Shown: in pieces, positions 31,808-42,564 of the stretch
Position numbering within the stretch: the stretch's first letter is position 1
Layout: each line of letters opens with the position of its first letter
Assembly (NCBI GenBank): GCA_029981855.1
Contig: JARRCS010000020.1
Span: 1 to 42,683, forward strand
Source: Halanaerobiales bacterium
GTDB lineage: Bacteria; Bacillota; Halanaerobiia; Halanaerobiales; DTU029
DNA: 42,683 bases
Direction of reading: 5' to 3'
Made by a program: the position numbers and the translations under genes
The notes under the pieces: model-generated
Seen by the model: the letters and a program-made list of their open reading frames with translations, nothing else
Databases searched by the model: none
What the model was told of the DNA's origin: nothing

Positions 31808-31884
31808 TGGTGTGGGTAAGTGGATTCGAACCACTGGCCTCTACGATGTCAACGTAGCGCTCTGACCAACTGAGCTATACCCAC
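31808..31884 (-). tRNA. tRNA-Val (GAC)
   Basis: Acceptor GTGGGTA/TACCCAC, anticodon stem CTACG/CGTAG with loop TTGACAT giving GAC, T-arm GGTTCGAATCC, and an encoded CCA. Last of seven tRNAs in the operon. Confidence 0.96.
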
Positions 31885-31892
31885 ACATTATA

Positions 31893-31982
31893 TGGTGCCG
31901 GGGGTCGGGCTCGAACCGACACGGGTATAAGATACCCACCGGATTTTAAGTCCGATGCGTCTGCCAATTCCGCCACCCCGGC
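31893..31982 (-). tRNA. tRNA-Leu (UAA)
   Basis: A 90-nt class II tRNA with a long variable arm. Acceptor GCCGGGG/CCCCGGC, anticodon loop CTTAAAA giving UAA, CCA encoded. Confidence 0.96.
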
Positions 31983-31998
31983 ATGTTATATATTTTAA

Positions 31999-32073
31999 TG
32001 GAGGCGGCACCCAGATTCGAACTGGGGAATAAAGGATTTGCAGTCCTCTGCCTTACCACTTGGCTATGCCGCC
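31999..32073 (-). tRNA. tRNA-Cys (GCA)
   Basis: Acceptor GGCGGCA/TGCCGCC, anticodon stem AGGA/TCCT with loop CTGCAAA giving GCA, CCA encoded. Confidence 0.96.
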
Positions 32074-32078
32074 TTTTC

Positions 32079-32153
32079 TGGAGCGGGAAACGGGATTTGA
32101 ACCCGCGACCCTCACGTTGGCAACGTGATGCTCTACCACTGAGCTATTCCCGC
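32079..32153 (-). tRNA. tRNA-Gly (GCC)
   Basis: Acceptor GCGGGAA/TTCCCGC, anticodon stem TCACG/CGTGA with loop TTGCCAA giving GCC, CCA encoded. Confidence 0.96.
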
Positions 32154-32158
32154 AGAAA

Positions 32159-32234
32159 TGGTGGTGAGAGGCAGAATCGAACTGCCGACACGTGGATTTT
32201 CAGTCCACTGCTCTACCAACTGAGCTATCTCACC
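32159..32234 (-). tRNA. tRNA-Phe (GAA)
   Basis: Acceptor GGTGAGA/TCTCACC, anticodon stem GTGGA/TCCAC with loop CTGAAAA giving GAA, CCA encoded. This is the effector of the pheS T-box in the same window. Confidence 0.96.
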
Positions 32235-32236
32235 AC

Positions 32237-32314
32237 TGGCGGAGACGACGGGATTCGAACCCGCGCTCTCCGGCGTGACAGGCCGGCGCGTTGAACCAGC
32301 TACGCTACGTCTCC
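32237..32314 (-). tRNA. tRNA-Asp (GTC)
   Basis: Acceptor GGAGACG/CGTCTCC with G discriminator, anticodon stem CCGGC/GCCGG with loop CTGTCAC giving GTC, CCA encoded. Confidence 0.96.
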
Positions 32315-32322
32315 TAAATTTA

Positions 32323-32398
32323 TGGTGGGCGAAACAGGGCTCGAACCTGTGGCCCCCTGCTTGTAAGGCAGGTGCTCTCCCAACTGAGCTATTCGCCC
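32323..32398 (-). tRNA. tRNA-Val (UAC)
   Basis: Acceptor GGGCGAA/TTCGCCC, anticodon stem CCTGC/GCAGG with loop CTTACAA giving UAC, CCA encoded. First of the operon; the last one reads the other Val codons. Confidence 0.96.
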
Positions 32399-34939: not shown

Positions 34940-34966
34940 AAAGTTGATAAAGGAAAGGTGATAAAA

Positions 34967-35338
34967 ATGAAGGAATATTATGCCTGCTTATCTAAAAGAG
35001 AGAAGGAGCAACAACAGACAAATAAAGAATATCATAAAAAGATAGAACAAAGATTACAGAAATCTTTAATTGAGATAACAAATAGATTCCCTGCCATTAA
35101 GAAGATAATTATTTTTGGTTCATATCTAAATGATAGATTTAATAAAAATTCAGACCTGGATTTATATATTGAGGAAATAACAGGCGAAGACTTCTATAAT
35201 ATAAAAAGGATACTGGAGGATAAACTGGAGATTGATGTAGATATATATACTCAGACAGATAGTCAGGAATTTATTGATAAAATCAAAGAAAGGGGTGAGA
35301 TATTATATGAAAGAGAAGCTAACAATTTTAATAGCTGA
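34967..35338 (+). CDS. MntA-type nucleotidyltransferase antitoxin
   Basis: A 123-aa minimal nucleotidyltransferase. The catalytic pattern GS-x10-DxD is exact (Gly51-Ser52 to Asp63 and Asp65, in IIIFGSYLNDRF...SDLDLYI), with a third carboxylate in EIDVDIYT (Asp92). MntA antitoxins inactivate HepT toxin by adding AMP to a tyrosine. The first 30 residues are a charged helix. The ATG at 34967 was chosen for its ribosome binding site over a GTG three codons earlier. Overlaps the toxin gene by 32 nt. Confidence 0.88.
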   Translation: MKEYYACLSKREKEQQQTNKEYHKKIEQRLQKSLIEITNRFPAIKKIIIFGSYLNDRFNKNSDLDLYIEEITGEDFYNIKRILEDKLEIDVDIYTQTDSQEFIDKIKERGEILYEREANNFNS

Positions 35339-35804
35339 TATACAGGATGATATAAATAGTATTAATAGAATTCAAGATGAGTTTAATTCATTCACTAAAT
35401 CTTTATCAGACCCCCCGGACCGTTACGAGAAAATGGTTATAGGCTATCTAATGCATAATTTTTATAATGCTTGTGAAAATATATTTTTGAATATAGCCAG
35501 AGTATTTGAAAATAATATTGAGCCCCAGGCCTGGCATAAAAGTATTTTAAAAAGAATGAAACTAACAATTAAAGACATTAGACCTGCTGTAATAAATGAA
35601 AAATTATATAAACAATTGAATGATTTCAGAGCATTTCGACATGTATTTAGACACCTGTATTCAGATGAACTAGATTGGGAAAAAGAAAGGCTTCTTGTTA
35701 ATAAATTTAATAATACAGTCTCGACATTTATTGAGGAACTAAATGAATTTATAAATTTCCTGGAGCAACTCATAACCCAAAATGATGAGGGGAAAATGGA
35801 ATAA
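35307..35804 (+). CDS. HepT-type HEPN ribonuclease toxin
   Basis: A 165-aa all-helical HEPN protein. The RNase motif RX4HXY is intact: Arg111-x4-His116-Leu-Tyr118 in FRAFRHVFRHLYSD; the tyrosine is the site that MntA-type partners AMPylate. HEPN toxins cleave RNA (tRNA or mRNA). ATG at 35307 with GGGGTGAG upstream; the reading frame opens earlier but lacks a site. Together with the MNT gene it forms a complete toxin-antitoxin pair of the type VII kind, in a stretch of mobile-element remains. Confidence 0.87.
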   Translation: MKEKLTILIADIQDDINSINRIQDEFNSFTKSLSDPPDRYEKMVIGYLMHNFYNACENIFLNIARVFENNIEPQAWHKSILKRMKLTIKDIRPAVINEKLYKQLNDFRAFRHVFRHLYSDELDWEKERLLVNKFNNTVSTFIEELNEFINFLEQLITQNDEGKME

Positions 35805-36825: not shown

Positions 36826-37440
36826 TTAATCTATTTTAACTGCTTGCCAGAAAAAATCTATATGTTTATCAACCATGTCAGCAGTATCAGGCTTTCTTTC
36901 CAGCAGTACATACTGAATACGCAGCAGGATAAAAAAACCGATAAATTCTGTAGCCAGCAGGAGGGGTTCATATTCCTTGATTAACCCCTTCTCCATCATA
37001 GTTCTGAAGATACCGGCCAAGATTTTTCTGTCTTCTTCCATAATCTTTTCCTCAATTAGTTTTTTAACTGAATCCCGGTCATGTTCTCGCATGACTAATT
37101 TTATAAACTTCTGTTCTTCCGGTTTTTTTGTCAGATTGAAGGCCTTCCTGGCCAGAAGCTGTAAAAATTCATAAGGCTTATCCACTTTTTCCTTAAGCTC
37201 TTTACTAGTCAGAATATTTTTAATCGACCCCGGTCCAAAAGTCAGTAACAACTTCTCAAAAATATCCTTTTTACCTGCAAAATGGTTATATATAGAACTT
37301 TTCTGGATATCTACCATGCTGGCAATCTCCCTCATGGAAGTTCCGTGATAACCCTTGCTGGCAAATAAATCAAGAGCAGCCTCCAGTATCTTGTCTCTGG
37401 TATCAGAGCCAGTTGCCCTGTTATCAATACCACCATCCAT
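36826..37440 (-). CDS. TetR family transcriptional regulator
   Basis: A 204-aa TetR regulator. N-terminal DNA-binding domain (about 13-65) with DKILEAALDLFASKGYHGTSMREIASMVDIQKSSIYNHFAGKKDIFEKLL; the C-terminal helical domain would bind a ligand and dimerise. ATG at 37440 with AGAAGGGAT, 17 nt after the barrel gene, so co-transcribed with it. A 12-bp perfect palindrome in front of the MMPL gene (42553-42564) is the likely target; no similar site was seen before the barrel gene. Ligand unknown. Confidence 0.9.
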   Translation of the reverse strand: MDGGIDNRATGSDTRDKILEAALDLFASKGYHGTSMREIASMVDIQKSSIYNHFAGKKDIFEKLLLTFGPGSIKNILTSKELKEKVDKPYEFLQLLARKAFNLTKKPEEQKFIKLVMREHDRDSVKKLIEEKIMEEDRKILAGIFRTMMEKGLIKEYEPLLLATEFIGFFILLRIQYVLLERKPDTADMVDKHIDFFWQAVKID

Positions 37441-37457
37441 TTTATCAATCCCTTCTT

Positions 37458-38516
37458 TTAAAAGTGTATATTTAAACCTGTATAAAATGTATCCTGAACA
37501 GGTACTCCATAATAATCTTCACCATTATCATTAACAATACTGGCTCCTACCTGTAGCTCTACCGCTTCTGCTAGGGAATAATTAAACTGTGGTCTGAGGA
37601 TCACAATATCCTTATCCAGCTCGTAGATCCCGGTAAATTCCAGTTCATGAAAGGTACGCACTGGATAGGTTATCCTTAAATTCAAAGCCTTAAAGTCAGG
37701 TTCCTGAGCTATTCTCCCCTGTTTGTAATAATATTGTCCAGTTAAAGAAAGATTATTGTAAAACCTGTATTCGGCCCCTATTACACCCTCTAGATTATTG
37801 TTAAATAAGGCATCATTGAAATTTTTATAAACAACTTCAGTCCAGACACCCACTACATTAATTGAACCGATCATATCAAATCCAACTGCAGTTACTTCGG
37901 GTTTCATTATATTTCCACCTGGTACAGTAACTTCGTCTCTACCCTTAAATCCACTCAGGGAAAGGTCCCAGCCGTGAAACTGTCTTCTGGTCGCTTTTAC
38001 CGCATATTCAATATCATCAAGATCATTGCTACCTGAAGCAAAAGGTGCCACTACACCTATCAATTCAATATCACCGGGTCCATAGTATGTACCTCTGACA
38101 GCCCTGACACCTTCTGTAATGGAAACCGGGTCCAGCTGCATTAACTGCTGAGAATCAAAATAGGAAGTCGGGTTAATTTTATAGGAACTACCCCAGTTAA
38201 TCTCCTGTTTTCCCACCCGCCAGTCCATATTTTCAGTATAATAATCAAGATAAGCCTGCGATAACTTTAATTCAATATCTTCATTTTTATCATTTTTTAT
38301 CATGGTCAAATCCAGGTAAAAATCTGAGGTAAATCCAAAATCATTTTCTCCAGTTATTGTCAGTAGATCATCATAACCCAGTTCCCCACTTTTTAAATTA
38401 TAATCCAGAAAACTTTGCAGTGAACCGGAGAGATCTAAACCACTGGCTGAACTAATGCAGGAAGTTGATAAGAGAAGAACAGTCAAAATTAATAATATCT
38501 CTATTCTTTTAAGCAT
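37458..38516 (-). CDS. Predicted outer-membrane beta-barrel protein (DUF1302-like)
   Basis: A 352-aa exported protein. Signal peptide about 1-25 (LLILTVLLLSTSCISSASG). The remainder is alternating hydrophobic/polar beta strands, with WRVGKQEINWGSSYKINPTSYF, TEGVRAVRGTYYGPGDIELIG and aromatic girdles, and it ends in a C-terminal aromatic strand FYTGLNIHF, the usual signal for barrel insertion. The pattern is like the DUF1302 or porin-like partners found with RND pumps in Gram-negatives. It implies a diderm cell. ATG at 38516 with AAAAGGGGG; the frame opens earlier. The Cys20 context is not a good lipobox. Confidence 0.75.
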   Translation of the reverse strand: MLKRIEILLILTVLLLSTSCISSASGLDLSGSLQSFLDYNLKSGELGYDDLLTITGENDFGFTSDFYLDLTMIKNDKNEDIELKLSQAYLDYYTENMDWRVGKQEINWGSSYKINPTSYFDSQQLMQLDPVSITEGVRAVRGTYYGPGDIELIGVVAPFASGSNDLDDIEYAVKATRRQFHGWDLSLSGFKGRDEVTVPGGNIMKPEVTAVGFDMIGSINVVGVWTEVVYKNFNDALFNNNLEGVIGAEYRFYNNLSLTGQYYYKQGRIAQEPDFKALNLRITYPVRTFHELEFTGIYELDKDIVILRPQFNYSLAEAVELQVGASIVNDNGEDYYGVPVQDTFYTGLNIHF

Positions 38517-38660
38517 AGAAATCCCCCTTTTCCTAATGCCCATTTATGATTCTACTGCAAAAAGGTCTTAAAAGCATTGATAAATCAAGCTTTTTCACTA
38601 CAAAAAACACCCGAAAATATGATATAATTAGAGTAACAAAGAATATCGGAGTGATAATCA

Positions 38661-39417
38661 ATGTTTAAAGAGAATAATGACCATAAACAGTTAAAAATGT
38701 TTGGATACGAAGGTAAATTAAATCAACATAGAAGAAATATGCTTGAAAAAGGTTGGCCCGCTCTATTTTATGAGCAAGTTTTTTCTAAATAGACGAAACT
38801 ATGTTTTCAGACATAATGTGCCCAGTAGACCAAATTTCCCTGTTAACATATTAATATAATATCACTGGAAATTTTAAAACATCTTCATAACTTAACTGAT
38901 GAAGAACTGCTAGAGCGTTTTCATTTTGATCTCCGCTATTAAAAAGCCTTGGGCTTACAGGAGATTGACGAATTATCATTGGCTGCAAGAACTATTTACG
39001 AATTCAGGGATAGATTGGCTGCCTACTTAAAAGAAAATGATGAAGTCTTAATGAATCTTTTTGATAACCTTGTTAGTAATTTCATTGAAGAAGCAGGTAT
39101 TTCTACTAAAATTCAACGAATGGATTCCACGATGATAAAGGCTAACATAAAGCATCTATCCCGGATTCAATTGCTGCATAAAATAACAGTTAATTTTATT
39201 GGACTCCTTTCACCTCATCAACAAAAGAAAATTCATAAAAATACTATGAGCATATTTGAACCCCAAAATTTTAAAGAATTCAGCTTCAGTAAAAACAGAA
39301 ATATTATTTTTGATTGTGATGTAGCTGCTGTTTATGCAGTAGAATCATTAATAATTTTAATTTCATTATATCTCCCAATACTTCTAATTTTACTTTTTAA
39401 TATGATTTATTTATATC
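38661..39417 (+). pseudogene. Decayed IS1182-type transposase
   Basis: N-terminal half of an IS1182 family transposase with several breaks: MFKENNDHKQLKMFGYEGK ... ALFYEQVFSK stop; then VFRHNVPSRPNFPVNILI; a frameshift; SLEILKHLHNLTDEELLERF stop near 38940; then LAARTIYEFRDRLAAYLKEN and STKIQRMDSTMIKANIKHLS. The rest of the protein is lost, the match fading by about 39330. It has an RBS at 38648. It sits in opposite orientation between the LolA-like gene and the barrel gene and splits their presumed operon. Confidence 0.75.
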
Positions 39418-40185
39418 TTAACGCTTCAGGTACCTGACACTGAAGATTTGCTCATTTACCGATTGATCATAGACTACATTAACCATCTCTATGACCGTCT
39501 TTGTTCCCTTCTGGACATTTTCCATAGTTAATTTCTGCGGTGTCCAGTAACCGTTAATCTCCTTATGATCAGCAGGATTCATCACTTTTAACAATTCACC
39601 ATCAGCATCATAAAATTCACTCTTAAGTGGATACCAGTTGGCCTTATCTACCCACATTTTCACCTGGTTGTATTCTATATCGGGATTTGTTGGTATCAGT
39701 TTTAAAACATATTCCTGATCATTTTCTTCCAGAATACTGGCCTGATAATCCTCCCTGAAATTCGCTCCACCCAGGATGGTCAGATCATTAAAGCTGAAAT
39801 CAGTGCCGACAAAACTCCCATTTCTCTGACTGGAAGCTATTTTGCGAACACTGCCCAGGGCGGGCATATACAAATACATATCTTCACTGCCGTTTTCCTG
39901 CTCCAGTGATAAAAAGGCTGTTCCTTCAATAGTTGCCGGAGACAGGAAACGAACAAAAGACTTAGTAAGACCCTCCTGATTGCTCTTATAAATTTCCATT
40001 TCTCTTTCCCGGACATCACCACTGGCACTATAAAGTTTCATATTCATCTGTAAATGAGCAGTTGTAGAATGCATCTCCTCTTCTATCCTGGCCAAAACAT
40101 CATCACCTGTCAGAACAGCATTTACCGGTAAAACCAGCAAGTAAAGTAAAAATACTGTCATTAATAAAATTATTATTTTTTTCAT
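39418..40185 (-). CDS. LolA-like outer membrane lipoprotein-sorting protein
   Basis: A 255-aa secreted protein. Signal peptide about 1-22 (MKKIIILLMTVFLLYLLVLP, cut after VNA). The mature part has the half-barrel fold of PF17131-type LolA-like proteins: VREREMEIYKSNQEGL, VRFLSPATIEGTAFLSLE, MYLYMPALGSVRKIASSQRNGSF, DFSFNDLTILGG and VKMWVDKANWYPLKSEFYD. Such proteins carry a lipid or lipid-linked cargo across the periplasm next to MMPL pumps. ATG at 40185 with GGGGTGAG. It follows the pump gene by 52 nt. Confidence 0.85.
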   Translation of the reverse strand: MKKIIILLMTVFLLYLLVLPVNAVLTGDDVLARIEEEMHSTTAHLQMNMKLYSASGDVREREMEIYKSNQEGLTKSFVRFLSPATIEGTAFLSLEQENGSEDMYLYMPALGSVRKIASSQRNGSFVGTDFSFNDLTILGGANFREDYQASILEENDQEYVLKLIPTNPDIEYNQVKMWVDKANWYPLKSEFYDADGELLKVMNPADHKEINGYWTPQKLTMENVQKGTKTVIEMVNVVYDQSVNEQIFSVRYLKR

Positions 40186-40237
40186 TAAATAACTCACCCC
40201 TGTATTTATTCCTGGAAGGAGAATGTTCCCCCAGGTT

Positions 40238-42526
40238 TTAGTTGCTTTTAATTTCAGTTGAACCTTTTACTCCCGGTCCCGGTTCCAGAAATCCCGGTTT
40301 AAAAACAATACAGATGGCCGGAAGGATAAACAGCGCACCTATGAGGCAGAATGATATCGAAACCACAATCAGCATACCAAAAAACTGTACCAGTAAGAAG
40401 TTTGACACCAGTAAGATGGCAAAACCCACTATTACGGAAAAGGCATTAAAAATAATACCTCTACCGGTTGTTTTCAGGGTAGTCTTAACAGCTTCAATAG
40501 AATCACTTTTTTGTTTTTCCCGCCTGTAGCGCCAGAGAAAGTGAATGGTATAATCAACCCCAACCCCGATCATAATTGAAGATAACGTGGCTGTAATCAT
40601 GTTCAGTTCTATGTTAAGATATCCCATCAGACCAAAAAGGCAGACAACAGCCAGTGACAGTGGTAAAATAGCCAGTAAACCAGCCATTGGTGACCGGAAA
40701 AGAATCATGACAATAATAGAGACAAGTACTATTGAGAGAACCAGGCTTAAAATCTGCCCCTGGACAATGAACTCCACCAGTTCAGCTAAAAGATGGGCAA
40801 AACCACCGTAAAGAACAAAAGGAGAATCACTATGCTGCTGAATGTAATTGCTGATATAATCCACAATTTGTTTTATCTTATTTGTACTATTGGTAGAAAT
40901 CCGGGCATTGACCAGGGCATGCTGCTGATTAAAATCGATCCATTTGCTCATATCGGCCGACATCGAGTAAAGCAGTAAATACTGTGATATCGCATTGCGC
41001 GAATCAGGAATCCTGTCATATTCCTGCTGTTCATTATGGAGTACTTCATTCATCCTCCTGATCAGAGTAGAAACTGCAGTAACTTCTCCCACGTTTTCCT
41101 TTGCCTTCAGATCCTGGACAAACTCATCTATTTTTTTCATAACTACCGGGTCAGTAATATCACCCTCAGCCAACACAGATATATTTGTGGCTCCACCGAA
41201 GTACTTATTCATTATTTCATTGGCTTTAACAATATCATAATCCTTACCAAAATAATTAATGGGATTGGTATCAATCACCAGTCGGCTAATCCCGGTTGCA
41301 ATCAGGATAACCAGAATAAGTGACACTACTATTACCTGTTTAGTGTGACCGGTTACAAACCTTGCAGTTTTATCAAGCAGTCTTTCCAGCAGATATTTCT
41401 TACGCATTTTTTTTGAAATTGGTTCTGCCCGCGGCATTAAAGATAATACAGCCGGTATAAACATCAAACTGGCCAGTAAGGCAAATCCAATTCCAACCGA
41501 AGCCAGGATTCCCAGCTGCCTCGCCGGTACAATGATGTGAGACAGCAGGCAGAGCATACCAACTATGGTTGTAATCCCAGTTGCAATAATAGGATTACCC
41601 AGATTTTCAATCACTTTCCGGGAGAGTGTTTTTTCATCAATCTTCAATCCTGTAATGTTTTCAGCCTGGTAGTCAGCTATGATATGGATACCATAGTCAT
41701 TGGTAACCGCCAGGAGTATAACAGGCAAAATAATGGTTATTAGTTGAATCTTCCAGCCCAGTAAGGAAATTAAACCAATTGAGACTATAATTGACATTAC
41801 AACTACCACAAAAGGTAGTAGAACGCCCCGGAACTGTTTAAAGCATATGTATAAAAATATCAGCATGATTAAAAGTCCCAGGGGAATAAAGTGCTGCATA
41901 TCTGATCTCATGTTAGCGGCCGCTTCAGCCCTCAAAACGGGCAGCCCGGTAAAATAAATTTTACCCGGTCCTGGTGTTTCCTTTATAATTTTATTTACTG
42001 CTGCCAGCAGTTCACTATCCTCATAATTCTCCTCCAGTATTCCCACCACAGCAGCAGCCTTAAAATCACTGGAGATTATATTACCATAAACCAGGTCATT
42101 TTTCTTGATCTTTTGTCTTAATTCTTCAATTTCCTGCTGATTCTGAGGTATTGCCTTGATTGAATCTTCAATAATAAGCTGGTCATTCTCCCCTGTTATA
42201 TCCTGAACTGTAAAGGGGCTTTTTACCTGATCAATCTGTTTTATCTTATCCATTTTATCTGACAGATTCTTTATCCTCTTTAAAACCCCGGGTGATAAGA
42301 CATCATCAGCAACTACTCCCACCATCACAATCTCTGTACCACCAAAGATATCTTCAATTTTATTAATGTTTATCCTGGCCGGTAGGTCTTCAGGAATCTG
42401 ACTCTTGATAGCAGTATCAATTTCTGTATGTGGAATCTGGACTGCAAAAAATACAGTAATCATCAGAAATATAATTATAACTAGTCTGGGGTGATTGACA
42501 GAAAAATTACCTATTTTCTTAACCAT
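40238..42526 (-). CDS. RND/MMPL family transporter
   Basis: A 762-aa pump of the HpnN/MMPL branch of the RND superfamily. First helix at 13-32, a periplasmic loop (33-210), helices about 213-375, a second loop (about 420-590) and a second helix bundle to about 745: twofold pseudo-repeat. Proton-relay Asp in TM4 is in AVTNDYGIHIIADY (Asp277) and again in GVGVDYTIHFLWRY. It likely moves lipids or hydrophobic compounds from the inner membrane to the LolA-like protein and the barrel. ATG at 42526 with GAGGGGATTAT. Likely repressed by the TetR through the operator upstream. Confidence 0.9.
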   Translation of the reverse strand: MVKKIGNFSVNHPRLVIIIFLMITVFFAVQIPHTEIDTAIKSQIPEDLPARININKIEDIFGGTEIVMVGVVADDVLSPGVLKRIKNLSDKMDKIKQIDQVKSPFTVQDITGENDQLIIEDSIKAIPQNQQEIEELRQKIKKNDLVYGNIISSDFKAAAVVGILEENYEDSELLAAVNKIIKETPGPGKIYFTGLPVLRAEAAANMRSDMQHFIPLGLLIMLIFLYICFKQFRGVLLPFVVVVMSIIVSIGLISLLGWKIQLITIILPVILLAVTNDYGIHIIADYQAENITGLKIDEKTLSRKVIENLGNPIIATGITTIVGMLCLLSHIIVPARQLGILASVGIGFALLASLMFIPAVLSLMPRAEPISKKMRKKYLLERLLDKTARFVTGHTKQVIVVSLILVILIATGISRLVIDTNPINYFGKDYDIVKANEIMNKYFGGATNISVLAEGDITDPVVMKKIDEFVQDLKAKENVGEVTAVSTLIRRMNEVLHNEQQEYDRIPDSRNAISQYLLLYSMSADMSKWIDFNQQHALVNARISTNSTNKIKQIVDYISNYIQQHSDSPFVLYGGFAHLLAELVEFIVQGQILSLVLSIVLVSIIVMILFRSPMAGLLAILPLSLAVVCLFGLMGYLNIELNMITATLSSIMIGVGVDYTIHFLWRYRREKQKSDSIEAVKTTLKTTGRGIIFNAFSVIVGFAILLVSNFLLVQFFGMLIVVSISFCLIGALFILPAICIVFKPGFLEPGPGVKGSTEIKSN

Positions 42527-42552
42527 ATAATCCCCTCGCTCTGTAATTAATT

Positions 42553-42564
42553 ACGAACGTTCGT
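42553..42564. promoter_or_regulatory. Palindromic operator before the MMPL gene
   Basis: A perfect 12-bp palindrome ACGAACGTTCGT. It lies about 20 nt downstream of the putative -10 box and 27 nt before the pump's start codon, a place where a repressor blocks transcription. The form resembles many TetR operators. Confidence 0.65.

Follow-up and report, generated by a model that had tools for sequence, protein, structure and literature searches.

A TetR-linked RND pump, LolA-like carrier and outer-membrane barrel in a Halanaerobiales bacterium: a candidate exporter across both membranes

The window analysed here, a stretch of 42,683 nucleotides from a Halanaerobiales bacterium, is the entire contig C16 of a 2.59 Mb genome in 39 contigs; below, C6, C16, C22 and C31 are contigs of this source genome, and L-numbers such as L008 are loci examined. 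It carries a module of four genes, all on the minus strand, for an inner-membrane RND pump, a periplasmic LolA-like carrier, an outer-membrane β-barrel and a TetR-family regulator, preceded by a predicted operator and interrupted by a transposon remnant (Table 1). A previous sequence-only reading had taken these genes to provide every layer of a route across the envelope together with its regulator. Indeed, all four open reading frames are intact at the positions that it gave, and Pfam matches and structure models identify the pump, the carrier, the barrel and the regulator. The nearest relatives among the loci examined belong to the Halanaerobiales. That the source organism is a spore-forming diderm, as the same reading held, is well supported, because the genome encodes both a protein with a SpoIIE domain (in a 799-aa frame) and an Omp85 protein; in addition, YtxC is encoded within the window.

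Table 1. Features of the module, with positions in the window.
Feature	Position	Strand	Basis or remark
TetR-family repressor, last gene of operon	36826..37440	-	PF00440, 58.7 bits
Outer-membrane β-barrel, DUF1302-related	37458..38543	-	Signal helix, 18-strand model, C-terminal Phe
DDE-transposase element with an internal deletion and terminal inverted repeats	38543..39353	.	tblastn, 14-bp repeats
LolA-like (PF17131 / LolA3-type) periplasmic carrier	39418..40197	-	PF17131, 9e-60; predicted N-terminal signal helix
RND/MMPL (HAE3-like) inner-membrane pump	40238..42526	-	PF03176, 179.5 bits
Predicted TetR operator ACGAACGTTCGT	42553..42564	.	26 bp upstream of pump start codon

The pump scores far above the cut-off of the MMPL family (179.5 bits against 20.5). 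Its best NCBIfam match is the HAE3 model TIGR00921 (295.1 bits, 9e-88), the curated cut-off of which, 351.9, it misses. Its sequence matches the structures of MmpL5 and HpnN, and its residues D658 and Y659, conserved in 100% and 98% of 84 homologues, respectively, align with the Asp-Tyr pair of MmpL5. In MmpL3-type pumps the Asp-Tyr pair belongs to the proton relay, and by analogy the pump of the window would be proton-driven. An identity as HpnN itself was considered and rejected, the scores being far under the cut-offs of both models (153.6/751.85 for TIGR03480 and 89/1100 for NF052374). In a tree of MMPL proteins, a clade of Halanaerobiales that contains the window pump is supported (97); C6, C31 and L133 form long branches, and their placement was not used. 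A separate locus from another Firmicute (L161:863-3219) has an MMPL gene broken up into several frames, adjacent to an intact carrier gene and a barrel gene cut by the contig end.

The carrier matches the LolA_like family PF17131 with 201.9 bits (cut-off 30) and also exceeds the cut-off of PF07044 (43.9/23.1 bits), which identifies it as a DUF1329-related protein of the LolA superfamily. LolA proper (PF03548) scores below its cut-off (13.8/23.6 bits), and the source genome as a whole has no canonical LolA above it, the best match reaching 13.4 bits. The structure model of the carrier is confident, with a mean predicted local distance difference test (pLDDT) score of 91.8, and the solved folds closest to it are LolA3 of Porphyromonas gingivalis (9TP6) and 3BK5, at Z 30.5; the superposition on 9TP6 has a root-mean-square deviation (rmsd) of 1.6 over 227 residues with 27% identity. 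The DUF1329 protein 4Z48 follows at Z 29.7, and true LolA and LolB structures are found at Z of about 9-16.

The barrel protein taken alone has no Pfam match above a cut-off, the nearest being Wzi (22.2/30.1) and DUF1302 (14.3/23.2). Its kinship emerges from its family: in an alignment of the window protein and 41 relatives, each taken from a locus selected by its MMPL gene, 38 of the 42 members match DUF1302 at E ≤ 0.01, and the paralogue on C31 passes the cut-off (24.7/23.2). The sequence-only reading had named the protein a DUF1302 barrel, and by these scores it is a relative of that family and not a formal member. The same reading had also raised the prospect that the gene might model as a soluble protein, an option that the model and its fold matches led us to reject. 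The model combines a signal helix with a barrel of 18 strands (pLDDT 88.2; predicted template modelling score, pTM, 0.80) and resembles OprD/Occ channels, chitoporin, MOMP and AlgE in the PDB (Z about 22-23, rmsd 3.1-4.3 over about 290-305 residues). All 42 sequences share the C-terminal phenylalanine (F361 in the window protein), a residue expected of proteins that are inserted by the Bam machinery, and they have a conserved core around Q113-W117-G118-P125. An assignment as a Wzi capsule protein was discarded, its sole support being a sub-cut-off match of 48 residues.

The regulator is a TetR-family protein by its TetR_N domain (58.7 bits, cut-off 24), and the proposal that it has a matching palindromic operator is supported. 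The palindrome ACGAACGTTCGT is present exactly at the operon start and is the sole copy in the genome at up to one mismatch, with 4+4 matches for the reversed control. The L008 operon, whose pump is 88% identical, retains the palindrome in a 35-bp island inside otherwise unalignable upstream DNA. Six further loci (L009, L011-L014 and L032) have a permuted gene order, yet carry a related site, CTAACNNNCGTTNGT, at the head of the operon. A site of the latter type stands at the start of every complete Halanaerobiales operon found of the window clade, and within the 1.55 Mb of examined locus DNA the pattern is restricted to these operon starts. In Halanaerobium the spacer that separates TTGACA from TATAAT or TAAAAT holds the site; at the window operon itself, no convincing consensus sigma-70 promoter was found, with 28 promoter-like matches against 20 expected. 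A chance palindrome was considered, as 0.35 are expected in the window alone at up to two mismatches, and is rejected by the uniqueness in the genome and the conservation at operon starts. TetR orthologues of the same Halanaerobiales operons have a near-identical helix-turn-helix (GTSMREIA..V.I..SSIYNHF.GK). Because the operator is conserved at operon starts and the helix-turn-helix is nearly identical, the operon is very likely autorepressed by its own TetR through the predicted operator. At another module of the genome, that on C31, a 28-bp inverted repeat, AATTATAGTTGCGAACGCAACTATAATT, lies just upstream of the MarR gene (L089:3396-3423) and is the likely operator there.

The genes of the module travel together. 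Among 96 PF17131 genes in 38 genomes of the order, 50 stand beside an MMPL gene, and a barrel gene is present as well at 48 of these 50; a LolA-like gene was found within 3 kb of 54 of the 57 barrel matches. Co-occurrence in relatives, on which the sequence-only reading had staked its claim, is thus borne out. RND-type sets occur in 25 of the 38 genomes, with up to six per genome, and were not found in the other 13, absences that are soft since several of these genomes are incomplete. The source genome has three such sets, on C16 and C6 with a TetR gene and on C31 with a MarR gene. Within the phylum (149 genomes), the barrel occurs in 24 of the 36 genomes with Omp85 and in none of the 113 without (Fisher p 4e-19, a value that overstates independence, the genomes being related), and so tracks outer-membrane machinery. 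MMPL and LolA-like genes accompany the barrel in all of 20 loci chosen by their barrel gene, a figure conditional on that choice (4 from class mates, 16 from more distant Firmicutes). A set of this kind in a sporulating Firmicute, singled out as little described, is real but by no means unique to the source organism, being present across Halanaerobiales, in other Omp85-bearing Firmicutes and in many diderm phyla. Of 80 loci examined, many hold pump, carrier and barrel together, among them loci of Myxococcota, Aminicenantes, KSB1, Spirochaetota, Latescibacterota, Bacteroidota and others.

The fourth PF17131 gene of the source genome has a different motor. On C22 (G000:C22:8000-18000; L097:550-6373), genes for a TetR, a LolD-like ATPase, two LolCE-like permeases, a PF17131 carrier and a barrel follow one another in this order. 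In 20 such ABC-type loci across the order, the ATPase, both permeases and the LolA-like gene are always present, and the barrel is found in 18. The ABC-linked and RND-linked barrels are homologous (profile-profile probability 98.6, E 6e-16). Because the same pair stands behind both RND pumps and an ABC motor, the carrier and the barrel form the constant unit, and the motor, RND or LolCDE/MacB-type ABC, varies. A cluster of the same make-up has been put forward as a Lol system, the first one in Firmicutes, with LolB not found (Antunes et al. 2016, PMC5007114), and a 2024 review regards the Halanaerobiales cluster as horizontally acquired lolCDE and lolA (PMC11784454). Judging from the authors' description, our ABC loci would be that cluster (PMC5007114). 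It has the PF17131 carrier family in common with the window and, in the 18 loci above, an adjacent homologous barrel, which the Lol section of that paper does not mention; it differs in its motor, which is LolCDE-like ABC and not RND, and in being described there as a lipoprotein sorting system (PMC5007114). We rejected the notion that the module of the window is itself a Lol system, because LolA proper is under its cut-off, the motor of the operon is RND rather than LolCDE, and the ABC version exists separately on C22.

Taken together, we consider it probable, at roughly 60%, that the module is a TetR-repressed, proton-driven exporter of hydrophobic or amphiphilic cargo, possibly a lipid or a drug, across both membranes. 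According to this model, the RND pump would load the carrier with lipophilic cargo; the carrier would then cross the periplasm and dock on its cognate 18-strand barrel, which would admit the cargo into or through the outer membrane. TetR would occupy the palindrome that heads the operon and be released as the cargo, or a related lipophile, accumulates in the cell. Carrier and barrel would act as one unit served by alternative motors, RND here and LolCDE/MacB-type ABC at C22. A reading as efflux is supported by the ameABCD deletion mutant of Castellaniella defragrans, which is less tolerant of monoterpenes and shows increased accumulation of Nile Red (PMC6394551). Each of the three RND sets of the genome has a TetR or MarR of its own, as expected of inducible export, and this local control together with the accessory distribution of the sets favours inducible export over housekeeping lipid traffic.

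Several observations weigh against such an exporter. The window operon has neither a homologue of AmeC (COG4447/YCF48-like), nor any further gene, nor a membrane-fusion protein. The first Asp-Tyr pair of the pump, D277-Y278, is less conserved than the second, and the C31 paralogue has another residue in place of its Asp. The transposon remnant parts the carrier gene from the barrel gene, and co-expression of the four genes at this locus is not certain. Finally, the homologues in Pseudomonas putida came to light through growth on Tween 20, which fits uptake as well (PMC10866462).

The strongest rival, which we regard as rather unlikely, is envelope biogenesis: instead of expelling toxins, the module would furnish the outer membrane with a lipid (a phospholipid, hopanoid-like lipid, lipopeptide or lipoprotein) in lineages that have neither Mla nor canonical LolA. 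It stays serious because Halanaerobiales are reported to lack Mla (PMC10665443); moreover, the carrier has a LolA fold with lipid-binding relatives, the source genome has no PF03548 protein above the cut-off, a LolCDE-like motor is served by the same carrier-barrel pair, and the related HpnN carries hopanoids (PMC6394551). However, a route whose RND form is missed in a third or so of the order and multiplied elsewhere, and which is controlled by local TetR or MarR genes, is unlike housekeeping. LolA3, the solved fold closest to the carrier, points the same way, as the P. gingivalis protein binds LolB only weakly (PMC13103446) and deletion of lolA3 in Flavobacterium leaves gliding and type IX secretion unaffected (PMC13103446, PMC11885536).

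Transport in the opposite direction, with hydrophobic nutrients or lipids taken up by the cell from the outer membrane, appears improbable. RND pumps whose direction is known are exporters, and the resemblance of the barrel to OprD/Occ uptake channels, which might suggest import, lies in a common fold that gives no direction. An inward route could account for the requirement of the P. putida DUF1302, DUF1329 and RND genes for growth on Tween 20 (PMC10866462), and for the induction by C28 alkane of the MMPL/LolA-like TOL_3187 of Thalassolituus together with its porin-like neighbour (PMC6304351). Growth phenotypes fit the removal of toxic intermediates just as well, though, and the lowered tolerance and raised dye accumulation upon ameABCD deletion speak for export (PMC6394551).

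The insert between the carrier and barrel genes is an inactive, internally deleted DDE-transposase element. It has 46% identity over 182 aa (tblastn) to a 530-aa transposase of L014 (DDE_Tnp_1_6), and a perfect 14-bp inverted repeat, ATGATTCTACTGCA, occurs at 38546 and 39335, near its ends. It spans about 0.8 kb, with the exact ends uncertain, and is a single copy in the genome. The carrier-barrel gap is 84 bp in L008, where the remnant is absent, compared to 874 bp here; this insertion could mean that the locus is decaying in the source genome, with the barrel and TetR genes severed from their promoter, but as all four reading frames and the operator are intact, and a terminator scan inside the insert on the coding strand gave no match, we consider that very improbable.

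Elsewhere in the window, a nucleotidyltransferase (PF18765) and a HepT-like protein (PF20797) are encoded at 34958-35804 and probably form an MNT-HEPN toxin-antitoxin pair; after the C31 module comes a pair with similarly arranged genes (L089:9253-10064). An orphan 124-aa piece of a PD-(D/E)XK nuclease (PF12705; 35932-36306) may be what is left of the C-terminal part of an AddA-like nuclease. Seven tRNA genes are clustered on the minus strand at 31808-32398, and the open reading frames called across them are probably spurious. A Baseplate J-like protein (PF04865; 5399-6925) hints at a phage-tail-like gene early in the contig.

The module bears on how lipids and other lipophiles reach the outer membrane in Halanaerobiales, where Mla is reported absent and LolB was not found, and in other diderm Firmicutes. 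We tentatively suggest, as a possibility that we would not put beyond doubtful, that in diderm Firmicutes an exchangeable pair of PF17131 carrier and 18-strand barrel serves as a general conduit for hydrophobes or lipids to the outer membrane, driven by either RND or ABC motors. If this were true, the 'Lol system' of Halanaerobiales would be the ABC-driven form of the conduit, and its cargo would go to the barrel instead of LolB. The outcome is a defined, regulated and testable gene set, and the nature of the LolCDE-like cluster of the order becomes directly testable.

Systems of this kind are already known, namely AmeABCD and the PP_0765/0766/2018/2019 proteins of P. putida; searching the literature for MMPL in connection with diderm Firmicutes, or for HAE3 in connection with lipoprotein, gave no relevant result. 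AmeABCD combines an HAE3 RND protein, a DUF1329 protein, AmeC and a DUF1302 protein, and export of apolar monoterpenes was proposed from its deletion mutant (PMC6394551). Like the module of the window, it joins an RND/MMPL pump, a periplasmic protein of the LolA superfamily and an outer-membrane barrel, of DUF1302 type there and DUF1302-related in the window, in a single cassette. Its carrier AmeB has 451 aa, whereas the PF17131-type carrier of the window has 259, and its barrel has 605 aa compared to 361; the module of the window also differs in belonging to another phylum and in having its own TetR and operator. In P. putida, the DUF1302 barrel, the DUF1329 carrier and the RND proteins (PP_0765, PP_0766, PP_2018 and PP_2019) are linked by a shared mutant phenotype and by co-folding (PMC10866462), and this set of barrel, carrier and pump differs in that its genes lie in two loci. 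HpnN and the MmpL3-MmpL5 exporters of lipids and siderophores share the RND superfamily and the conserved Asp-Tyr pair with the window pump, and HpnN is reported to work with no dedicated partner in the periplasm or the outer membrane (PMC6394551). With P. gingivalis LolA3 the likeness is that of the solved fold nearest to the carrier. To these systems, our analysis adds a form without AmeC, a tie to outer-membrane-bearing Firmicutes, a conserved operator and a swapped motor.

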